From Darksidea phi (lineage: Eukaryota > Ascomycota > Dothideomycetes > Pleosporales > Lentitheciaceae), in assembly GCA_030770425.1 (NCBI GenBank), contig JASJFT010000107.1, positions 62,001 through 126,000 on the forward strand: a stretch of 64,000 nucleotides of DNA. Direction: 5' to 3'. The notes beneath the pieces are model-generated. The model had not been told where the DNA came from and ran no database searches. It worked only from the letters and a program-made list of their open reading frames with translations. Position numbers and translations under genes: made by a program. This document shows positions 36,872 to 50,596 of the stretch, in pieces. The first letter of the stretch is position 1. The number at the start of each line of letters is the position of its first letter.

Positions 36872-39511
36872 CTATTCCCCTCTTTCTACCCTCAAATCAG
36901 CAGCACGTTCATCCAAGTACTCCTGAACAGCCTTTGCTGCAATGTCTGCAAGCGGAGTAGGTAGCCTCTCTTCTGGACCCAACTTTCTGGCTTTGCGAAG
37001 GCGCTTCTCTTCCTTCTCGACATCGATGAGTTCCCGAATTGTCTCGTTCACCATTATATACGAGTACCAAGTACCGGTGTGCCATTCCGCTTCCTGCGGT
37101 CGAAGTATACTGTGAATATTACCTATTTCTGCTGCAATTTTTGCACTCATCCCCTGCAGGATGATAATACAATCCGAATGAGCGATGAGGTAATCCATTT
37201 GGAGACGAGGCAACGCTTCCTCGAGATATACTTGCAGCTTCTCGAGGAACGGAACGACGCCAAGCTCGTCAATGTAGGACTTTTGCTTGCGCTTCGGGAC
37301 ACCTAGCTGCATCTCTGCATCGAAGCGGTAGAGAGCTTGTATAAGTGTAATATCTCCGTGAAGGTATTCGCGTAGGATTTGAATGGTCGTCGATGTGTGA
37401 AGCTGGTACGTCTTCTTAGAACGCATTTCAGAAGCTTTAAGATCGCGACCGTGGCGCACGAGCTGTTTCCCTTGCTGCATGGCTTTTAATGAGGTCCCCA
37501 TCGCCACTCTCATTCGTGAAAGCATCGCTTGCGGGTCGGTTGGGAATGTTAGTCCCATGAAAAGCTCTTGGCTATGCAGCTCCGAGATCTGCTGAAACAT
37601 ATTGCGTTCCTCCCCAGGTTGAAGTCGACCTGTCTGGGCGAGTGCGTTATAAAGGTGGCACATAGAAAAGACGTGCGGCGAAGTGTTCACCACGTCTATA
37701 CCCAATTCCTCATGGAGCATAAGGATCGCGAAACGCAGCTTGCCATCGTAAGCTGGGTTTATAGAAAGAAGGAGGTGTTCATCATCTGAGATGGGAATTG
37801 CTCCTTCTAGATCACGCTGTGTTTCGGGTGTCTCCACTGCTAGTCGTTGGCGGCGAGCTTCAGGTACTGGCCACTCTGACATCCACTCGTGAATGGCTCG
37901 AAGCCTGTCCATTAGCTTGTGATCCTTAACCCCTGGTAGGAATTCTTCGATATATATAATCTGCTGTCCAAGATTACTGGCTCGTTTCGAGAGCTGGAGG
38001 GGCACCAGGACCCGATCCTGCGGATCTGTAACGCGAAGAGCGAGAACCAATTCAGCTGCCAGTCCCGCTTGTAGCCCGACGGATCCTTGATTGTTGACAG
38101 ATTGAAGGACTCGAGATATCTCGTCCAGCGTCGTGGGTAATAGAGGCTGATTACGGTCGCGTTGTGACTTCATCCAGCCCGGCTCTTCCCAAAAGTTACT
38201 GCGAATAGCCTACAACCTGTTAGCGGGCACCATAAAAATGCGAACAGTGATGAATTCACTTACGGATTCGAGGCCAAGATCCATCAAATACTGAACCAAA
38301 ATAGTATCCTTTTCTTCCATGTCCTGATCGACTGTGTCTGGACCACGAGCGTGTAATAGTCTGAGAGGAAGCCTATAGGCGTTCTGGCCAACCTCTCGTC
38401 TTGATTTCGCGATATCGCCGAGCGTTCCAAGGGGGAGAAACATCAGCTCGTTTGGGTCCAGCTCGAATTGTATACTCTGGATACCGCTGACCTCGTTGAT
38501 GTGAAGGCGGTATCTTTCTTCTTGTTGACCCATATAGGCAACAGCAGCTTCGGTAATGATCGCAGCAACAGCAGTGTCGGTCAAAGTCTTCTGGCTCGGC
38601 TTGGGGTCCGGATTGATAGCATCGGCAACTATTTCCTCTTGAAGATCTTCCGTCTTACTTTCCAGAGCCTCTTTCGTGTCATTGTCATTGCTCTCTTCGA
38701 TCTTTTGTTCCTCTAGTACTTGTGAGCCTTCTGCGGGCCCATAAGGACTGGTGCCGCTCCATGTCTTTACACTATAATACCAAGCCCGACCTGCTTCTGT
38801 GAGAAGGCATATATACTGTAAGCGAGCTTCTTCCTCCTTGCTCAGCTTCGGCCGGTAGATTGCCCTGGTGGTGCTTGTTGAAGAAGCTTCAGGAGTATCG
38901 CTCGCATAGCCTTCGTCATGCGCCGGCTCTAAATTTTCTGCGGTGGGGTCTGCGTGTTTCAGTTTGTCGTACAGGGTACCAAGAGTTTCGCCAACTAGCG
39001 CGGTTTGGCCCTGGGTGTTGGGCGCGCTGGCAACTGGTTGGACACGCACACGATCCTTGATAAGATCGTGCACAGTTGCCAGTACCTGATTGAAGTAGCG
39101 GTGGCCTTCGTTGTCAAGCGGATCTGTAGACTCGTCCTCGGCATACCGCGCGGCGTAACGCTCCCGAGTATTCAGGCAATCCCTGTAGCAACGCCACACG
39201 ACTCGAGGCATCGTGAGCGTAAACTGGAGGGTGGCAATGAACCTCGCTTGCTTCTGGATCTCGTCGGTGCTGATGAGGTACCTTCGGGGTGGACGTTGGA
39301 CACCTGCGGGTTGCGGAGTTGGGCGATTTAGCGGTAACAGCCCAGCTTCCTTGGCTTGTTTACGCAACTTTCCTTTAAGTCGACCAGTTCTTGCAGCGGA
39401 TGTGTCGATCTCGTGATCCTTCTCGACATAGTTGCCATGATCTTCTGCGGCTTGGATGAACCAAGATAACCAAGCTTCGGTGTCGATCTTGTACTTCTCG
39501 TAGCCACTCAT
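36872..39511 (-). CDS. DUF6604-domain protein
   Basis: Two exons (38264..39511 and 36872..38209) are separated by a 54-nt intron (38210..38263, GTAAGT to TGTAG) and encode 861 residues. The N-terminus reads YEKYKIDTEAWLSWFIQAAE, then RLKGKLRKQAKEAG and a block with ISTDEIQKQARFIA. This matches the fungal DUF6604 domain, which begins with a YxxYKxxTE motif. A low-complexity acidic linker follows (about residues 220-300). Most of the C-terminal half is predicted helical (MRVAMGTSLKAMQQGKQLVR, ALPRLQMDYLIAHSDCIIIL). There is no membrane segment. The function is unknown; DUF6604 proteins often sit in accessory regions beside HET/NLR genes, as here. Confidence 0.85.
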
Positions 39512-40792: not shown

Positions 40793-42181
40793 TCAACTTC
40801 CCTTGGGGTTAACCCAAATCATCACCTCCTTACACCCACTTCCCATACTCTGCACAATCGCCCCCAACATGATAGCGAGCTTCTTCGGAACATGTATGAC
40901 AACCTCCACAATGCATCTCGCTAGCAGCCAGAGGATACAGCCAAGAGTGCCAAACAAAGCCTTGAACACGTCATAGCTTATCTCTCCAAACTTACAAAGC
41001 CATTCCCAAAGTTTCTTTGGTGCGTCGACGAAGATGGCGTGCAGGAAGATCTCAAAGCCGTCCAGCATGTCCTTGATTGTGATACGGCGGAAGAACGACG
41101 CAATAGCGGCGAACATCGTATGAAGAAGGGAGAGGAGATGGGTGAGGATGTGTTTTATGTCGTGCCCAAACTTCTTGAGACCACCCCACAACCATATCAA
41201 AACAATCCTTGCGGCTTTCGGAGTCCTTTTGATGAATTTACAGATATCCGCCAGCATCTCTTTCACCGTGATGGGAATCTCTTTGATAAGCCCCCAAATT
41301 TTCTTTGGGGTTTTCTTCGACCATTCTGCGATTATCTTTGGGATTTCCTTACGATGCTCTTTCAACCACTTGGCTCTGCGGATAGTAGGCTCAACGATCA
41401 AGCACTTGGGTACTTCCCAGACAAGGAATTTTGGGAGGTACCATAGCAAGACATGAAAGAACCTGTATATGCTCTTCATCGCCCTTTTAGCCCGGCACAT
41501 TGTTTTATGGTGTTTCGTTCTCCATCGTCGCCATCCGCCGCCTCTCCGCGCTGGTAGATATTTGACTATCTCCTTGTGGCCGTTGGTGGCGGCTAGTCGT
41601 AACGCATGTTGACCGTCTGGTGCAATGATCGAATCGTCGGCATGATATGTCTCCATAAGAAGTTTGACGATGGTTAGATTACCCTTTTCGGCCGCGAATT
41701 GTAACGGTGTGCGATACGTCTTCACGGGCGCTTTCCCAGAGCGCCGACCCGGTAGACCAATCGTGACTCCAAAGGCATTGACATCGGCTTCGAAGTCCAT
41801 CAATTGCTGCACCGTCCTCACATTTCCCGCCTCCACTGCAACAAGAAGCGGCGTGCGTTGATTCTCGTTCGTCGTTTCAGTCGTCACTAGTCCCGACTCG
41901 ATAAGCAGTGCAACAACTTCATCCTGCTTCGACCTGATTGCTTCAAAAAACAGTTTCACGATCTGTCGGCGCCGGCGGTACGGGACAAAGACTTGGTATC
42001 GCCGATCCACAAGCCGAGGACCGGTCGGATATTGGACAATAGGTAGTACACCCCCGTCATTGAGTGCCTCATCCACAAGTTGGTGCACACGGTCGCGTAA
42101 ACTTGTCTCGTGTTCTGTGTATGACGGTAGGGTAAGGTCGTCATATGCCAGTTCGTATGACGTTGACGGGTTAGCATCCAT
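40793..42181 (-). CDS. Ankyrin-repeat protein with basic, hydrophobic C-terminal half
   Basis: I take the start at the ATG opening MDANPSTSYELAYDDLTLPS (462 residues). The frame is open 66 codons further upstream, but that part is leader-like. Ankyrin units fill about residues 75-215: RTPLLVAVEAGNVRTVQQLM, TPLQFAAEKGNLTIVKLLME and HALRLAATNGHKEIVKYL. The C-terminal 240 residues are an unusual run of Trp/Lys/Ile-rich segments (WLKEHRKEIPKIIAEWSKKT, then several near-hydrophobic helices such as MLDGFEIFLHAIFV). This could lie on or insert into membranes. The stop at 40793 comes in mid-pattern, so a 3' intron or truncation is possible. Ankyrins sense partners in many fungal NLR-type proteins; no effector domain is recognised here. 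Confidence 0.75.
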   Translation of the reverse strand: MDANPSTSYELAYDDLTLPSYTEHETSLRDRVHQLVDEALNDGGVLPIVQYPTGPRLVDRRYQVFVPYRRRRQIVKLFFEAIRSKQDEVVALLIESGLVTTETTNENQRTPLLVAVEAGNVRTVQQLMDFEADVNAFGVTIGLPGRRSGKAPVKTYRTPLQFAAEKGNLTIVKLLMETYHADDSIIAPDGQHALRLAATNGHKEIVKYLPARRGGGWRRWRTKHHKTMCRAKRAMKSIYRFFHVLLWYLPKFLVWEVPKCLIVEPTIRRAKWLKEHRKEIPKIIAEWSKKTPKKIWGLIKEIPITVKEMLADICKFIKRTPKAARIVLIWLWGGLKKFGHDIKHILTHLLSLLHTMFAAIASFFRRITIKDMLDGFEIFLHAIFVDAPKKLWEWLCKFGEISYDVFKALFGTLGCILWLLARCIVEVVIHVPKKLAIMLGAIVQSMGSGCKEVMIWVNPKGS

Positions 42182-43507
42182 CGTGTCGCTCTGGTTCTGA
42201 TTCGAAAGCGATGGGCCGAAAGTTTTGGCTGTAGACACTGCTAAGCGATGAGTTGCAATGTAATGAAGCGGGGAGACTGATGTATTAGTTTGAGCACTCG
42301 CTAAGCAGAGGCTGTGTTCGTGCCGTGGCGCAGAAGGACTTGCGATTGTACAGCCTCGTCCCGGTGCCGAAAACCTCACAAGGTCAACTGGTCAAATTTA
42401 CCGGGGGGGCGAGCTGGTATTTATGTAGGAGGGGGCAGGTTTGGATAGTTAATTCGCTGTTGCCTTAGAAGAGTCGCTCATAACCAGCAGCTGGTACGAT
42501 GACGGCATTGCTGCTCGCCCCCACCGAATACGAGCATGTGAAAGTTCTTCGTGCAGTTGGAATACTTTCGATGCCACAGCGTCACCTGTTGTAGAGGTAT
42601 GAAGCGCATACTTATTTGAATGCGTTTCGGAAACATCTGCTGTTTCTTAGCACATTGTGACGATATAGTTGGCGTCGCGAAGGCAAACTCAGTGAGTGGG
42701 TGCTCAGACAATTTCCGTTGCCTTTTCACGCTGTGATCAAAGGGTTGAAGATTGGTTCTATCATCATAGTTCGTACCAGCAAGGAAAGACTGGGTACATA
42801 CTAAAGCCTGAATGACTGGCGCACAAAGTTACCTCAACGTATATGCGCAGGCAAAAGAAACTCGCTACCCAAATTGATTGATCACTGGAAACCTTAGATA
42901 ACAACGCGGGACGGCCGGCAGAGGCTATGGCATCGCTAATCGGGTGTCCCAGAAAGAAAGGTATGTTGCCACGGGTAGACACAAGTATATGTGAAGAGAG
43001 CAGAGACGTCGTTAACAAGGCCAGACAGCGGGGAGTGAATGCTAAAGTTTTTTTTGGCGGGGGATGCGAGCTCGGGCCTCGGAGCTAAACCATTCTGGAA
43101 TCGGCGACATTTGCTTCAAGGTGTTTCTTTAGCGTCACTTTTCTGGGTCCTTTCATACACACAAACCTATTTCCAATACAATAAGCACTCAAAGGTAAAG
43201 TTGACCAGCACCCGATAGCGTCGTTTCAACACGCTGATACGTCATGCCGCAGCAGGATGTCGATATTGTCAACAAAACGGTCGCTTCGTCGCAATGTTTG
43301 TTATATTGATGCTTAACTGTAGCAAGTATCTGATCCTGATACGTTAATTAGACCTACATCTTTTAATCCGTATAAAATGAGGAAGGCATCGTTGACAGCT
43401 CGTACCCCCCTCAGGAACGCTTTGAGCAGCACACCAAATATGGTTCCGCTTCCATCAACCATGTACGCGGAAGCGAAACCAACCATTTTCACAACATTCA
43501 TAAGTCT
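42182..43507. other. Intergenic region, no gene recognised
   Basis: Upstream flank of the ankyrin gene. Minus-strand frames near 42478-43018 and 43313-43501 are short and show no domain. Confidence 0.4.
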
Positions 43508-44322: not shown

Positions 44323-44358
44323 CGACGGCCCATAATCCCATAATTCGAGACTGGTAAT

Positions 44359-44411
44359 GTCAATCCTTACGTGCCGGGACACCCGGCGTGACGGGACACT
44401 TTTTCTTTCGG
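44359..44411 (+). repeat. Dispersed 53-bp repeat, copy A
   Basis: This copy is 83% identical (44 of 53) to the reverse complement of 49248..49300. Eight of the nine differences are transitions. The block ACGGGACACTTTTTCTTTCG is identical in both. Weaker similarity continues for some 40 bp beyond one end. Confidence 0.8.
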
Positions 44412-45079
44412 TACCTCGGGTTGTTCGCAGCGTCCTTGTATACAGAAGAGCGCCATATGTATCCATTCTCGGCTTTCGTTCTTCCATCACACCAGCTCCC
44501 GGCGTTAAAAAGCACATCACCGACCATGTTATCGTTCGTTCTCTTAGTACTATCGAGTGAGTCTCCTACAACACTACGCCGCTCGATCACGGTAATAAAT
44601 ATCTACAAAGAGCTCGGTGGACTTAAAGGGAAGTCAAGATGGCTAAAACTCTCACTAGCGTCTTAAAAGGTCGATTGTAGGTAGGAAGTGTGCATTCCGG
44701 CAGTTTCTCCGCGCAGACGGAACTTGCAGTAGCGTACTGAAATATCTGCGATCAGCACAGCGCAGTGTGGCTAAGAACTGCGGCTTTGAGCCTCATGCCT
44801 CAGGTAGCTCTTATCTCCGGCTGTACAGGTAGCTGTTCCTCCAGTCGTGCACGCACGCCTTACACAGAGCTACGTCCGCTTTTTGTACAGGTCTCTATAC
44901 ACAAAAAATATAGTAAAGGCAGCAAAACTCCAAGTTCTAAGAAGTGATCTTGCAGGGCTTATAGATACCTTACAGAGAAAACACCTTTGAAAGCTATACT
45001 AGACAAGCGAGCTTGATCGCATGTGGCTTCGCGAATTAGATGACATGCAAGGAGAGCGTGCCTTGGGCTCATCATTGAG

Positions 45080-48000
45080 TTACTCTGCTTGCCAACTGCT
45101 TAGCGCATCACGCGACGACTGCGTATCGGGGTGGTGCTTGCCAAGAATCTGCTGGCGCGACTGGAAACATCTTTCCATCAGTTCAATAGCCTCCTCTTGA
45201 CGAGCTTGTAACTTTAGTGTATAAGCAAGATTGTTCATGCTGGTCAGCGTGTCTGGATGTTCGCCGCCAAGCACTCTCTTCCTCGTTTGCATCACTTTCA
45301 CTTCCAGCTTTGCGGCCTCACGCCATCGCCCTTGTTTGCTGTATGTCGCCGCTAGGTTGCCCATGCCGAGAAGCGTAAGTGGATGCTCATCGCCTAGAAT
45401 TTTTCTCTTTGTTTTTATTACTTCCATAGATAGTGCTTCTGCCTGCACCCACTGCCTTTGGTAGCAGTGCGTTGACGCCAGGTTGTCAATACTAGTTAGC
45501 GTGGAAGGATGTTCACAGCCAAGTACTCTCTTCCTTATCTGCATGACTTGTACTTGCAGCCCTTCCGCCTCGCGCCATCGCTTTTGATTGCTGTAAGTTG
45601 CCGCTAGGTTGCTCATGCTGATCAGCGTGTCAGGATGCTCGTCACCAAGTACTCTCTTCCTCGTCTGTATTACTTGTACATTGAGTTTTTCAGCCTCACG
45701 CGATCGCCCTTGGTGCCTGTATATTGATGCCAGGTTGTTCATACTGGTGAGTACGTGCGGATGCTCGTCGCCAAGTACCTTCTTCCTCGTTTGTATCACT
45801 TGCACTTCTAGCTCTGCGGCCTCGTGCCATAGCCCTTGGCGTATGTATGCCGACGCCAGGTTGCTCATGCTAACAAGCGTGTCAGGATGCTTGTTACCAA
45901 GTACCTTCTCCCTCGTCTGTATCACTTGTAAAAATAGTTGTTCAGCCTTGTCCCATTGCCCCTGTTGCGCATAGGTCGATGCTAAGTGGTCCATACTAAT
46001 CAGCGTGTGCGGATGCTTGCCGCCAAGTACTCGTTGCATTGTCTGCATCACTTGTACTTCTAACTCTTCGGCCTCGCGCCATCGCCCTTGGTGCGTATAC
46101 GTTGACGCCAAGTTGCCCATACTGGTCAGCGTGTCTGGATGCTCGCCACCAAGCACTCTCTTCCTTATTTGCATCACTTGTACTTCTAACTCTTCGGCCT
46201 CGCGCCATCGCCCTTGGTGCCTGTATGTCGATGCCAGGTTGCCTATACTAACGAGCACGTACGGATGCTCGTCGCCAAGTACCTTCTTCCTCGTTTGCAT
46301 TACTTGCACTTCCAGCTCTACAGCCTCGTGCCATCTCCCTTGATGCGCATACGTATACGCCAAGTTGCCTATACTGGCCAGCGTGTCCGGATGCTCGTCA
46401 CCAAGAACTCCCTTCGTTATCTGCACCACCTGCAAAAATAGCTCTTCAGCTTCCTTATACCGTCCATCACTATGTAGAGACATGGCACATTTTCGTGCAA
46501 GTTCTAATCTCTCTCCTCCATCACCATCACCGACCTGACTATGAGAAAGAACGTATTGTGCATGCGGTAGCAGTCGTCTCCACTTGCTTCTGTTACTGTG
46601 ATCGCCATCTGGAAATATCCGGTTTAGTTGTGTAATAGTTTGTCGAGTCCAATATTGGATCCTTCCTTGCGCCTTCAGCTGCTTTCGTAAGGCTTGGTGA
46701 ACTAGTTGATGGATATCGAGTGCAGACTCAGCAGGTCGCCTGGTGACGAGCGCATACTTGTCAAGTACTTTGACAGCTTTCTCTCGATCTTTTGATGAGA
46801 CTACCTCTAGAATATCCAGCAAAATGTCTCTTCGGTCCACGCATGCAGCAAGGGACAGATAGTCTGCTGCAGCCTGATTGATACGACAAATATGGGCTAT
46901 AGAAAGAAACAATGTAGCAGTTACAGGGCCTTCCGCATCGCAATTCTGCAGCTTGCCATTAGATGAGTCACTGCAGCACTCGAGGACCCCCTCTTTGTGT
47001 TTGTTTAGTTGTGCTTGATACTCCTGTACTGTCATGCTACTAGCATTCATGTGCGATGCTGCCTGCACAATTGCAAGAGGCAGATACGATAGCTCCATCA
47101 GCAAGTGCTCGGCTTCCTGCTGTTCAGTGTTCGCGACCGGCCTCGATAGGTAATTTCGCAGCATCCTCAACGCCGTGTCTGGCATCAGCTTATGTAGTGC
47201 TACGATGTTTTGTGGAGCAAATGCCTGAGCTATAGCGTTGTTTGTGGTCGTGAAGATGATAGAACATAGCTTAGACTGTGGTAGACAATCGGCTAAGCCT
47301 GCCACTTCTACTGTTGACCCGTTGGATCGTAGAGTGGCGTCCTCCACGTTGTCGAAGATTAGCAAACACTGCCGCGCGCTCAGCTCTGCTGCGCAATATT
47401 GTATGATCCGTTTCATGTCTGCCAGGTCGTCATCGCATCCGGGAATACGAAGTTTCTGTGCAATACGTGCATACGACTGGTAGAGACTGTCTCTGTCGCT
47501 CGCCTCGATCCAAAAGACCGAGCAGTTCTTGTTTTCAAATCTTGTTGTGTGGGCAACCTCAAGCGCGAGCTGCGACTTGCCTGTTCCGCCGGGTCCAACT
47601 ATTGCCAGTGTGGTAGTCGACTGTTCGTTGCTGAAGAGTTTTGCTTCTAGTTCGGCAAGCTCCATCTCTCGACCCACGAAGCGATCGTTCTGCGAGAACG
47701 GAATGATCGACAGAGCTCCTCTAACTTCTCCTACCTCGGCCTCCAGTCTTCTCTGTGCACTAATTATCCCTTCGCCATACATGGCACGCATAGAGACGCC
47801 AAGAATTCCAAGCAGACAGTACACAATATCTTCTTCTTCGGTCGTTACACGATTTTCGGCCCACCTCTTTCGCTCAAACGTAGTAAATTGATCCAAAGGG
47901 CAGTTTTGCAGTGCTGCGAGCGGGATGCTGGTGATCTCATGTATAAGCCTCTCGAGTGACGCTTTGTCGCCTATGCGCCGTCCTTCGTGCGAAAAGAACT

Positions 48001-48451
48001 CTACAGAGACTGGCGCAATCAGCTCTTGTAGCGTCCATCCTCGAGTGAACCACGCGCTTGCACGAAATAACGCTTCCCAGTCGCTGCGTTGAACGGGGTC
48101 TGTCGAGGTTGACGCTGATACGTCTGACAAGAAGACGTAACATCGTGACGCGCTCTTGTACCACTGGAACATCGAGTTGATCGCCCTAGAGCGCTCGATC
48201 TTGTCCCACCTGTCGATGCAGCATGTATCGATCCAGAAGTACTGCAGCTCATCCCGAGCCGCTTGCTCGGCGCAGAACTTGAGCTTTTTGTAGCCTTCTT
48301 CTTTTCCCTTGTACGCTTCGCTCGATAGGTCTTCGATGAGGACTTCGGAGGCGCCCCATCTGTGCGATAGGATAGCGTAGGGCGGAATCAATTTGCCGCG
48401 GAAATCCGTCAAGGCGAGTCTGCCTAGCGCGTCAAAATGCAGAAGTTGCAT
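45080..48451 (-). CDS. HET-NB-ARC-TPR receptor (fungal NLR)
   Basis: This is an intact single-exon frame of 1,123 residues. Residues 24-230 are a HET-type domain: PPYAILSHRWG, WIDTCCIDRWDKIERSRAIN, GWTLQELIAP, then EEEDIVYCLLGILGV and MRAMYGEG. A nucleotide-binding NB-ARC part follows with P-loop GPGGTGKS (286-293), Walker B-like LLIFDNVED and LSYLPLAIVQAAS. From about residue 665 there are eleven 42-residue TPR units of kinesin-light-chain type, each with a VLGxEHPDT-like corner and NLAxTYxxQGRW. Such proteins are fungal NOD-like receptors: TPRs sense, NB-ARC switches with nucleotide, and HET executes incompatibility-type cell death. No frameshift or stop is seen, so it may be functional. 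Repeat units are very alike, as expected for fast unit exchange. A MITE sits just upstream. Confidence 0.95.
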   Translation of the reverse strand: MQLLHFDALGRLALTDFRGKLIPPYAILSHRWGASEVLIEDLSSEAYKGKEEGYKKLKFCAEQAARDELQYFWIDTCCIDRWDKIERSRAINSMFQWYKSASRCYVFLSDVSASTSTDPVQRSDWEALFRASAWFTRGWTLQELIAPVSVEFFSHEGRRIGDKASLERLIHEITSIPLAALQNCPLDQFTTFERKRWAENRVTTEEEDIVYCLLGILGVSMRAMYGEGIISAQRRLEAEVGEVRGALSIIPFSQNDRFVGREMELAELEAKLFSNEQSTTTLAIVGPGGTGKSQLALEVAHTTRFENKNCSVFWIEASDRDSLYQSYARIAQKLRIPGCDDDLADMKRIIQYCAAELSARQCLLIFDNVEDATLRSNGSTVEVAGLADCLPQSKLCSIIFTTTNNAIAQAFAPQNIVALHKLMPDTALRMLRNYLSRPVANTEQQEAEHLLMELSYLPLAIVQAASHMNASSMTVQEYQAQLNKHKEGVLECCSDSSNGKLQNCDAEGPVTATLFLSIAHICRINQAAADYLSLAACVDRRDILLDILEVVSSKDREKAVKVLDKYALVTRRPAESALDIHQLVHQALRKQLKAQGRIQYWTRQTITQLNRIFPDGDHSNRSKWRRLLPHAQYVLSHSQVGDGDGGERLELARKCAMSLHSDGRYKEAEELFLQVVQITKGVLGDEHPDTLASIGNLAYTYAHQGRWHEAVELEVQVMQTRKKVLGDEHPYVLVSIGNLASTYRHQGRWREAEELEVQVMQIRKRVLGGEHPDTLTSMGNLASTYTHQGRWREAEELEVQVMQTMQRVLGGKHPHTLISMDHLASTYAQQGQWDKAEQLFLQVIQTREKVLGNKHPDTLVSMSNLASAYIRQGLWHEAAELEVQVIQTRKKVLGDEHPHVLTSMNNLASIYRHQGRSREAEKLNVQVIQTRKRVLGDEHPDTLISMSNLAATYSNQKRWREAEGLQVQVMQIRKRVLGCEHPSTLTSIDNLASTHCYQRQWVQAEALSMEVIKTKRKILGDEHPLTLLGMGNLAATYSKQGRWREAAKLEVKVMQTRKRVLGGEHPDTLTSMNNLAYTLKLQARQEEAIELMERCFQSRQQILGKHHPDTQSSRDALSSWQAE

Positions 48452-48555
48452 GGCGCTTACAGTTTAGATTTGGTCGAAGGAGAGGGAAGGGCGAACGACT
48501 CACATGGTGTTGAGGGTAGAACTACATAGCGACAAGGCAGAGGGAGCTTATGCTA

Positions 48556-48791
48556 CGAGGGCGTCGTATTTAGTGAGTCATAACCGAAATCCTTGGCATA
48601 CCATCACAAAACCTTCCCCCCATATAAAGTACCACCAAAATAGGGTTTTCTCGCGGTTTTTAGGTTAGAATAATAGAATTAAGGCTATAAATTATAAGCG
48701 AAAGCCTATAAAGAGCTATTTTTTAGTATTAAGATTCGGTGTTTTGAAAATGCCGAGCTTCGGTTATGACACACTAAATACGACGCCCTCG
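48556..48791. mobile_element. Tc1/mariner-type MITE with 33-bp terminal inverted repeats
   Basis: The ends read CGAGGGCGTCGTATTTAGTG inward and match each other over 33 bp with a single mismatch. Less exact pairing continues to about 44 bp. TA dinucleotides flank both sides (48554-48555 and 48792-48793), the expected target duplication of Tc1/mariner elements. The 236-bp interior is A/T-rich and encodes nothing, so this is a non-autonomous element. It lies 105 bp upstream of the NLR start codon. Confidence 0.93.
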
Positions 48792-48793
48792 TA

Positions 48794-50596
48794 GGCTGCG
48801 GTGAAGGCAAACAGCTGTCAATGTGATCGGGAATAAGAGCTGTGTGGCTAAGCCCCAGTTCTCAGCCACAGTGCACCGAGCGGCCATAGATATCTCAGCA
48901 CGCTGCACGGCCGATCAGATGAGTTTCGACGATGTTGTTGATTACACGGAGAAACTACCGGAATGCATACTCTACATCTAAAATTAATCTTTCAAGGCTA
49001 TATTTCTACTCTTTGCTATCCGAAGTTGCTCCTAAGTCTACAGGATTGTTTGCAAATCAATACTGTCGAGAATAAACAGGGGGTTGTTGGAAGAGAGTGC
49101 ATCGACAACATTGACAGAAAAGGCGACAGCAAGGTCAAAAACGCATTTTTCGATGTCGGAGCTTGATTTGACTAGAGTGCGAGAGGTCTAGAAGAGATTC
49201 ACGCTGGATCTGTCGATCTACAAGTGTGGTGGGAGCATTCCGAGCGCCCGAAAGAAAAAGTGTCCCGTTACACCGTGCGTCCCGGCATACAGGGACTGAC
49301 CTTAGACCCCTCGATTTGTTGGGGGTTGGAGATCCATTCCGTGTGGGAAGAGTTGGCATAGTCGCGTCATCCTTCCGAGTTATACCCTTCCGTCTGCTAT
49401 GAAAGCAGAGCTTCTGGTGCAAACATCGCTTTAAGCGACATGGGTTCTTTGAGAAATCTGGTACTTCTACGAGAATGTACTCATCCGTCGTTTCGTGCGG
49501 ATTTTGTATGACAAAGGGTAATGTCTGGGGTTTCAGCATGGCGATCATGAGTGTACGTAAGGTAAACCGTCGGCAAAAGAACACAGGGCTGAAGAGATTA
49601 TGATAGAATTTCACAAAAAAGGATTCTAGGAAGTATCCAACGTTCTGCACGACGAAAGTTGAAGAAGTCATGAATTACGTTTTTGAATGGTACTGATTCA
49701 TTGTGCAGACACGGATCGGGCACACGAACTCGGGATTAGTTGATCATACGTCCTGCGCATCGGCTTTATACACTTGTACGCTTTTGCGTCCCTGTATTCT
49801 CTGTAGCACTCGTCCTTCCATTCTGGATATAGAAAGAGTTAGCTGGCGAGCAACGGCAAGATAAACAACCAGTGGGCTAGTGAACTCGATATCTTTTCTG
49901 TGATCTGTACTAGGGGTAAAAAGGCTGCTATGGTAACTAAGTTCCCCAGTTGAAGTATTTCCACGAGGCCAAGAGCGGGCGAGCGGGACGGACACGTCCG
50001 TTGCATATTAGCAACACTCAATTCTCAAACACCATAAACGACGCCTAGAAGTACCATAAACCTTCCAGTTGTTTTGGCTCTTGCGTTCGACATATCGTCT
50101 AAGATCTCCTTCAACATCGCCTCCTAAGCGATCCGCCGTCACAGCAAAATTACAACATTGGTACAACATCCACACTCACGAACAGCCAACCAACCATTCC
50201 ACAAATAACGCCGCCACTCAGCCCCATCACGACTTATAACGCGCCAACACGCGGCTAGACACGTGTCCGCCAACACGCACCCACGTGACAAGGCTAATCC
50301 CTGCGCAAATTCTTTCACCGCTTATTGCACAAAATAAACAAGCTAGACATGCGGCGTGAACGCAAAACGTCATTTCACATACGCCGATCATCCCTCTCTT
50401 TCTCGCATATTGAAACATTTTTGGTATTGTGTAACTCTGTTCAATTTTCGTAACGAATTTTGCTTTCAAAATCAAGGGTCCAAAGGCCTGTCATCCTGCA
50501 TATCAGGTTACACATCGGCTACCCAGCCAAAGTACAACCATAGAATCGGCCAGCAACGCACTTCAGTAAGCCACAGTCCAAAGGGGAAAAAAGAAG
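48794..50596. other. Intergenic region with repeat copy B
   Basis: No recognised gene. The minus-strand frame 49135..49671 overlaps repeat copy B and shows no domain. Around 50240-50290 the sequence GCCAACACGC occurs twice beside two CACGTG cores, possible regulatory sites for the small gene at 50597. Confidence 0.4.
49248..49300 (-). repeat. Dispersed 53-bp repeat, copy B
   Basis: This is the inverted partner of 44359..44411; the two copies flank the NLR gene and its MITE. Differences are almost all transitions, as in RIP-aged repeats. Confidence 0.8.

Follow-up and report, generated by a model that had tools for sequence, protein, structure and literature searches.

The NLR gene

The window considered here is the whole 64-kb stretch of DNA that was analysed, and the argument starts from two neighbouring features within it:

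45080..48451, minus strand: NLR-type gene (HET-NB-ARC-TPR, 1123 aa, one open frame), from the ORF call and Pfam domains
48554..48793, no strand assigned: MITE copy with both flanking TA dinucleotides (core 48556-48791) and 35-bp TIRs; four full copies were found in the genome, this one included

The initial annotation described an unbroken HET-NB-ARC-TPR gene of about 3.4 kb, and this was borne out, as the frame 48451..45080 on the minus strand runs through 1123 aa with zero internal stops. The Pfam domains are HET (residues 25-118) and NB-ARC (263-492) followed by 11 TPR_10 stretches, giving an N-terminal HET, a central NB-ARC with P-loop and a C-terminal TPR region, the order of the HET-NB-ARC-TPR class of NLRs in Ascomycota. 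The Walker A motif reads GPGGTGKS at residue 286, and HET blocks, Walker B, GxP-like and MHD-like motifs were also located in the protein sequence. Judged from its domains, the protein would be an incompatibility receptor. HET NLRs are an established class in which ligand sensing by the TPR region leads to NB-ARC oligomerisation and to cell death triggered by HET, and the present receptor would work in the same way.

Among the matches listed (120 of 6320), relatives of the NLR are 49-73% identical to it, and those that are named belong mainly to Pleosporales. The protein contains ten 42-aa repeat units with pairwise amino-acid identities of 38-79%, and because they are only this similar, they fall outside the class of NLR repeats with high internal conservation, for which the excerpt of Dyrka et al. 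(2014, PMC4986451) used here gives more than 85% identity over at least 100 aa. The same excerpt describes repeats of the TPR_10 type (PF13374) in the Ascomycota HET-NB-ARC-TPR NLRs, recurring at a strict 42-aa period as they do here. It had also been proposed that related genes lie broken in the window; this was not confirmed, since a search with the NLR against the rest of the 64 kb, the NLR itself being masked, gave no hit by tblastn (E up to 1) or by blastn (E up to 0.1). An interrupted gene does occur near the NLR, a DUF6604 gene in which no similarity to the NLR was detected.

A MITE family with four full copies

The TA-flanked 236-bp element noted upstream of the NLR proved to be a real MITE, present in four copies, non-coding and 240 bp long when bounded by its TA dinucleotides (core 236 bp). 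Its inverted ends (48553-48588 and 48759-48794) comprise 36 nt with 97% complementarity, and the terminal repeats, first given as 33 bp with one mismatch, extend over 35 bp with a sole mismatch at position 48576. The distance from the TA to the NLR ATG is 102 bases, consistent with the 105 bp reported initially, and as single-stranded DNA the element folds with a z of -7.6. It is a non-autonomous, TA-inserting element and, judging by its TA ends, probably of the Tc1/mariner superfamily.

A search for the same ends across the genome retrieved three additional full copies, on contigs C148, C259 and C8, which are 95-96% identical to the window copy; all four have TA at both ends, and their flanks are mutually unrelated. 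With up to 3 mismatches allowed, the 51.35 Mb searched contain the 22-bp end 9 times; 8 of these are the ends of the four copies, and the reversed control pattern gave 0, so that these ends are not due to chance, and no additional copies emerged from the genome-wide end searches at this threshold. As regards an empty site, a related single-TA site was found for the sister copy on C148 and none for the NLR copy. When the C148 flanks were joined with a single TA, 28 of the 40 scored repeat matches (from 263 first-look candidates) continued for at least 5 bases past the TA, one side being supported by 5 bases only. The flanks of the C259 and C8 copies matched nothing but themselves. For the NLR copy, the C113 paralogue, which shares 61% identity across NLR residues 1-947, shows no promoter homology, and the 600-bp flank upstream of the NLR matches only itself, contig C98 and the left arm described below.

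No autonomous partner was found genome-wide within 3 mismatches of 22 or of 35 bases (RIP-tolerant), in an end check that covered 29 of 82 DDE_1 and 0 of 28 DDE_3 matches. Two candidates were set aside: the 22-mer match on C447 is a lone end within other sequence, and the C294 sequence that matches the degenerate pattern is rich in A/T and was treated as chance. At the NLR, C148 and C8 copies, the MITE precedes an ORF (of 1123, 330 and 747 aa, respectively) by 102, 199 and 335 bp, in the same relative orientation, and for the C259 copy the nearest ORF start that it precedes (ORFs of at least 80 aa) is 1034 bp away. Four copies with no null model give no evidence for preferential insertion upstream of genes.

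The near-identity of the element ends had been taken to suggest a recent insertion. However, each of the four copies keeps 0-1 mismatches in the 35-bp TIR while internal divergence varies, and TIR identity was therefore rejected as a sign of recency. Over 240 sites, the NLR copy shows 10-12 differences from the other copies, which show 5-7 among themselves, and since it is the most diverged copy of the family, nothing marks it as freshly arrived. It carries 8 private changes, 3 of which are CpA/TpG where the sisters carry TpA (at 48597, as an exception, the sister on C259 carries TpG). RIP-type changes common to the sisters could account for this, and the NLR copy could then be an early branch and not just an older one; on neither view is a recent insertion demonstrated.

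Long inverted arms around the gene and the MITE

A second, longer inverted structure encloses both features:

44355..44786, plus strand: left long inverted arm, outer end TAATGTCAATCC... (outer to inner), from sequence comparison
48850..49304, minus strand: right long inverted arm, outer end TAAGGTCAGTCC... (outer to inner), from sequence comparison
44355..49304, no strand assigned: proposed TA-ended TIR element of 4950 bp holding the NLR and the nested MITE, by inference

The arms, of 432 bp (left) and 455 bp (right), are both outward-facing and TA-ended, and when aligned across 431 columns they share 62.2% identity, the highest value among 120 controls (60 shuffles and 60 random window pieces) being 48.1%. 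They form the sole inverted pair listed in the 64-kb window by a dust-filtered scan (E < 1e-3), from whose list the MITE arms are absent. Relative to the NLR, the left arm is on the 3' side and the right arm on the 5' side, and the stop of the gene is 725 bp inside the left end. The interval 44355-49304 thus combines TA at both ends with paired homologous outward arms; both ends together were seen once in the genome, and neither an empty site for the 4950-bp element nor a transposase with its ends was seen.

The same ends occur on other contigs. The 26-bp end core, TGCCGGGACRCMCGGYGTRACGGGAC, has 6 occurrences in the genome and 0 for the reversed control, and the ends begin with TAA in 4 of the 4 that were read, two 3-mismatch occurrences (C183 and C455) standing outside this count. 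The matches of C98 and C13 to the right arm stop at this TAA. On C98, a TPR gene stop lies 722 bp inside the end, as against 725 bp in the window; on C13, the open frame of a TPR fragment begins 426 bp in from the end and the stop of a TPR gene lies at about 1.2 kb, two TPR C-termini adjoining the end tail to tail. Both contigs carry TPR coding sequence of the kind found in NLRs, the likeness to NLRs lying in these repeats. Under a generous null, at least 2 of 4 ends this close to TPR genes would occur with P of about 0.002-0.005, for an association that was noticed post hoc. The C98 element runs off its contig after one end, and no second end was found on C13 within 3 mismatches. With the first 60 bp removed, the alignments of the C98 and C13 arms with the window arms are at control level or close to it: C98 and the right arm scored 0.492, where the best of 40 shuffles reached 0.488, and the other three fell below their shuffle maxima.

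Two proposed transposon layers and the alternatives

Because related ends adjoin TPR genes on two contigs, the larger structure is read here as a member of a non-autonomous TIR family with NLR cargo. This reading, in which two DNA-transposon layers surround one NLR and the MITE is nested in an older NLR-carrying TIR element, is given slightly better than even chances. The NLR would have been the cargo of a non-autonomous 4950-bp element, mobilised by a transposase that recognises its long-arm ends, and the MITE, the layer that is directly observed, would have been the later arrival, inserted 102 bp ahead of the NLR start. Since arm ends adjoin TPR genes elsewhere, NLR-type genes may be moved by transposons, and a broader version is put forward tentatively, with the balance against it: that a Pleosporales family of small, TA-inserting, non-autonomous TIR transposons disperses and regroups NLR/TPR cargo by cut-and-paste, and that younger MITEs land in the cargo promoter.

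It is rather unlikely, although it deserves serious weight, that an ordinary MITE lies upstream of an ordinary NLR and that the arms are two separate outward-facing repeat relics, the repeat shared with C98 and C13 tending to insert near NLR/TPR clusters. NLR clusters frequently accumulate transposons, the arms are old (62% identical), a full second element was not seen, and no such arms were listed in the partial flanks of the other NLR-relative loci (C94, C113 and C390), all of which suits separate relics. On the other hand, the two arms are homologous and of similar length, both point outward from the gene and no other such pair was listed in the window by that scan, and TPR coding sequence lies on the inner side at C98 and C13 too.

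An improbable origin of the arms is an old inverted NLR duplication, head-to-head or tail-to-tail, in which one gene was lost and the shared ends are NLR-flanking DNA. The tail-to-tail TPR C-termini on C13 fit such an origin, as does the match of 10 of the 18 bases outside the TAA in the window pair, a level reached by 85 of 20,000 random 18-mers. These 18 bases slightly raised the standing of the duplication and slightly lowered that of both the NLR-cargo element and the NLR/TPR-dispersing family, and because of them the outer boundary rests on the C98 and C13 ends. However, all four ends read start with TAA, where the right-arm matches of C98 and C13 stop, and, outside the arms, stretches of 100 and 200 bp of the window flanks are no more alike than the controls. 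Additionally, neither arm is a copied gene end, since they lie 3' and 5' of one gene, and no NLR relic was found in the window.

Comparison with known systems

Taken alone, the MITE is of a known kind and ordinary within it. The mimp elements also target TA, and their TIR presumably differs in sequence from the one described here. According to the part of the mimp report cited (Fusarium oxysporum, PMC3599309), mimps are likewise non-coding, about 200-240 bp long with TIRs of about 27-35 bp, and located upstream of genes, and an intact partner transposon is absent from the genome described, as none was found here either. In contrast, 55 copies are counted there on one chromosome against 4 here, and the downstream gene is a secreted SIX effector rather than an NLR.

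A system resembling the larger element is the Dothideomycetes hAT with a transduplicated histone H3 (PMC6710886, as excerpted), where a host gene also lies between DNA-transposon ends; that element has an 8-bp TSD, a TIR of about 20 bp and a high copy number, whereas TA ends, 432/455-bp arms, one complete structure and an NLR gene are found here. The Fot1/pogo (DDE_1) elements of the same genome also have TA ends and long TIRs with inner direct repeats, the TIRs reaching at least 40 bp at 15 of the 29 loci examined. At these 15 loci the ends read TAACRTGTTT... in 14 and TAAGCTAGCC... in one, matching neither the MITE nor the larger element, and Fot1/pogo was rejected as the autonomous partner of the MITE.

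To our knowledge, the expansion and interchromosomal movement of fungal NLR repertoires are largely unexplained, and Starship cargo is the main documented vehicle. Starships are giant elements with a DUF3435 tyrosine recombinase captain, with which a 4.95-kb element with TIRs does not fit. The likeness lies in a fungal NLR within a mobile element, one NLR being placed within one Gaeumannomyces Starship in the portion of PMC12134995 used. If the two-layer reading is true, a compact TIR element with an intact NLR would be a second, testable vehicle for NLR movement, and the 26-bp end core would be a sequence tag for finding more NLR-carrying elements.

The MITE and NLR expression

One further feature concerns the promoter:

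48574..48580, no strand assigned: TGAGTCA (CPRE/Gcn4-type site), created by the private change at 48576 and absent in the other three copies

It is predicted that the MITE does not affect the coding function of the NLR and that its influence extends no further than replacing the distal promoter; it is probably neutral. The motif, as defined in the cited section of PMC3199737, lies about 125 bp upstream of the NLR ATG, and because the change at 48576 creates it, a starvation-responsive receptor under a putative CPC1/Gcn4-type cross-pathway control is conceivable. That a recent insertion rewired NLR expression in this manner is nevertheless very improbable: TGAGTCA occurs in 1 of 4 copies, no more than 2 of the 720 possible single changes to the majority sequence would create it, and the change is derived, as the other base stands in the three sisters and in the opposite arm of every copy, but the motif was picked after the fact, the NLR copy is the most diverged, and deletion of the mimps upstream of SIX1 and SIX3/SIX5 left expression unchanged in the Fusarium experiments excerpted (PMC3599309). 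In a panel of 11 motifs, the same copy has also lost one STRE, retains just one of three TATA-like matches and has acquired a PacC-like match, as drift would produce.

NLR gene and enclosing structure

The intact NLR gene and the MITE in its promoter described in the initial annotation are both present, and they are arranged as follows.

44355-44786 (+), left arm of a larger structure, 432 bp
45080-48451 (-), NLR, a HET-NB-ARC-TPR gene
48554-48793, MITE, 240 bp with TA at each end, 102 bp upstream of the NLR ATG
48850-49304 (-), right arm of the larger structure, 455 bp

The NLR (48451..45080, - strand) is a stop-free ORF of 1123 aa, with HET at residues 25-118, NB-ARC at 263-492 and eleven TPR_10 stretches. 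Ten TPR units are full and follow a strict 42-aa period, with 38-79% pairwise protein identity. Among the best 120 of 6320 protein relatives, identity ranges from 49 to 73%, and the named ones, which include Paraphaeosphaeria, Pyrenophora and Alternaria, are mainly Pleosporales. The neighbouring Rix7-type AAA gene has protein relatives up to 83%, the named ones (Kalmusia, Paraconiothyrium) reaching 80%, which suggests that the species is absent from the protein set searched. Within the genome, at least 62 NLR matches were listed and 41 of 242 candidates were scored; the best scoring of these, on contig C113, showed 61% over residues 1-947, and its upstream DNA bears no relation to that of the NLR.

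The gene lies between two inverted arms, found when a search with the NLR upstream flank returned an unexpected inverse match at 44355-44440 and one place on contig C98. Collinear inverse matches join 44355-44440 with 49304-49219, 44662-44711 with 48996-48947, and 44731-44786 with 48904-48850. Aligned end to end, the arms share 62.2% identity over 431 columns (102 transitions, 61 transversions), against a maximum of 48.1% in 120 controls, half of them shuffles and half random pieces of the window. A dust-filtered scan of the window at E < 1e-3 listed no inverted pair but this one; it omits the MITE arms, which were seen in a separate analysis. Of the 4063 bp between the arms, the NLR takes up 3372 bp and the MITE 240 bp; the remainder, about 0.45 kb, is other DNA.

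The arms terminate in TA. An ungapped repeat finder prolonged them 18 bases outward, where 10 of 18 match, a level reached by only 85 of 20,000 random 18-mers; the five bases that border the TA all differ. Since these outer bases also match within the window pair, the TAA boundary relies on the comparison with contigs C98 and C13. Over longer stretches outside the arms, similarity was at control level (0.481 over 100 bp, shuffle maximum 0.548; 0.471 over 200 bp, maximum 0.529).

Recurrence of the end core

The 26-bp outer end sequence of the arms (end core), allowing up to three mismatches, has six genome matches, and its reversed control none: both ends in the window, C98 (no mismatch), C13 (2), C183:30728-30753 (3) and C455:58434-58459 (3). 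The four ends read (two window, C98, C13) all start with TAA, where the C98 and C13 blast matches to the right arm also end. On both of these contigs the end core stands beside TPR genes. On C98, a TPR gene is represented inside the end by its 3' portion, with its stop 722 bp from that end versus 725 bp in the window. On C13, a TPR gene also found among the NLR-protein matches has its stop about 1.2 kb inside the end, together with an opposite-strand TPR fragment whose open frame starts 426 bp from the end. Assuming that 2-3% of the genome is this near a TPR gene of the type in question (a generous scaling from the at least 62 NLR matches listed) and entering C183 and C455 as misses, the probability that two or more of the four ends, taken as independent, fall so near to one is about 0.002-0.005.

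Beyond the first 60 bp, C98 versus the right arm scored 0.492, at the control limit (maximum of 40 shuffles, 0.488), and versus the left arm 0.433, below the control maximum of 0.462. C13 stayed below the control maximum against either window arm, whereas C13 versus C98 reached 0.516, above its maximum of 0.480. In the partial flanks at C94, C113 and C390, no arms of this kind were listed.

We infer that the enclosing structure (44355-49304, 4950 bp) is an old TA-ended TIR element with the NLR as cargo. The whole 4950 bp would have moved as one unit, presumably by a Tc1/mariner- or pogo-type transposase. Within this genome, no empty site, second complete element or transposase with its ends was seen. 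Among the open-licence papers listed on NLR genes and transposons, none deals with an NLR carried by a small TIR element or with a fungal NLR preceded by a MITE. For Dothideomycetes, PMC6710886 describes a host gene, histone H3, captured by a hAT DNA transposon. Elsewhere, PMC12134995 reports one NLR in a Gaeumannomyces Starship.

As a separate observation, the C98 TPR gene (L080/L082, C98:91010-91708, -) runs off the contig and has almost identical repeats, giving the look of high internal conservation, a criterion for NLR repeats taken from PMC4986451. At C13:66700-68560 (L083/L081), two TPR C-termini stand tail to tail inside the end, the second apparently 5'-truncated.

Copies, target site and age of the MITE

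The MITE is genuine, and of an ordinary and known kind. Its 35-bp TIRs differ by one mismatch only, at 48576, and as single-stranded DNA it folds with z = -7.6 versus shuffles. A genome-wide DNA search for further copies gave four full copies, the window copy and three others, each with 95-96% identity to it.

C148:1075-1314, MITE copy
C259:3064-3303, MITE copy
C8:53278-53517, MITE copy

The 22-bp MITE end, with up to three mismatches, occurs at nine genome places, eight being the ends of these copies; the ninth, on C447, was rejected as a lone match in unrelated surroundings. A RIP-tolerant 35-bp pattern again recovered all eight ends of the four copies, with a single A/T-rich match in addition. 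The flanks of the copies are mutually unrelated, and they are therefore separate insertions.

When the C148 flanks were joined through one TA and 40 other matches were scored (of 263 first-look candidates), 28 continued at least 5 bases past the TA and 12 continued 3 bases; by eye, two of three inspected carried ACAACGTATAACA and the third ACAACGCATAACA. This supports TA duplication, though on the right it covers just 5 bases, the repeat stopping at that point. For C259 and C8, the joined flanks found no match beyond their own. The repeat family terminating at the C148 site (L027, C148:886-1076; at least 40 matches) is possibly a retroelement end.

Near-perfect TIRs occur in all four copies, so that TIR identity gives no insertion date, and the recent insertion initially proposed is not borne out: over 240 bp the window copy differs from each other copy at 10-12 positions, versus 5-7 among the other three. 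Its private changes relative to the majority number eight, versus 2, 3 and 4. Three of the eight show CpA/TpG in place of the sisters' TpA (one sister departs from this at one site), so some of this distance may belong to the sisters' common branch.

Concerning an autonomous partner, the genome holds 82 DDE_1 matches (pogo/Fot-type transposases) and 28 DDE_3 matches; 29 DDE_1 loci were examined, 15 with TIRs of at least 40 bp, and none had MITE-like ends. Internal TAG stops, as expected of RIP, occur in 68 of the 82, and a few full-length matches are open (L033, L034, L038).

MITE and NLR expression

The private change at 48576 creates TGAGTCA in the window MITE, and it is derived, since the other base is found in the three sisters and in the opposite arm of every copy. 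This motif is the CPRE, bound by CpcA-type regulators according to PMC3199737. Only 2 of 720 single changes could make it, and the window has four such sites versus about 7.8 predicted from base composition. In a panel of 11 motifs, the window copy has gained one PacC-like match, and its losses are one STRE and two TATA-like matches, as expected of drift. Removing mimps from the SIX promoters of Fusarium left expression unchanged, as PMC3599309 reports. As to the altered expression initially suggested, a neutral or modest effect would have the better prior.

The leader directly upstream of the NLR start (48451-48510, -), CACCATGTGAGT...CTAAACTGTAAGCGCCATG, reads either as a start-stop uORF (ATG TGA) or as a 5'-UTR intron of ~48 nt (GTGAGT...AG).

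Neighbouring genes

Related genes had been described as broken in the window; with the NLR masked, searches of the window with its protein and coding DNA gave no other match. The interrupted gene near the NLR is a DUF6604 gene.

39571-36872 (-), DUF6604 gene
38210-38212, in-frame TAG within it
40793-42391 (-), ankyrin ORF

This single TAG cuts the DUF6604 gene into two ATG ORFs of 433 aa, and the ankyrin ORF is its neighbour.
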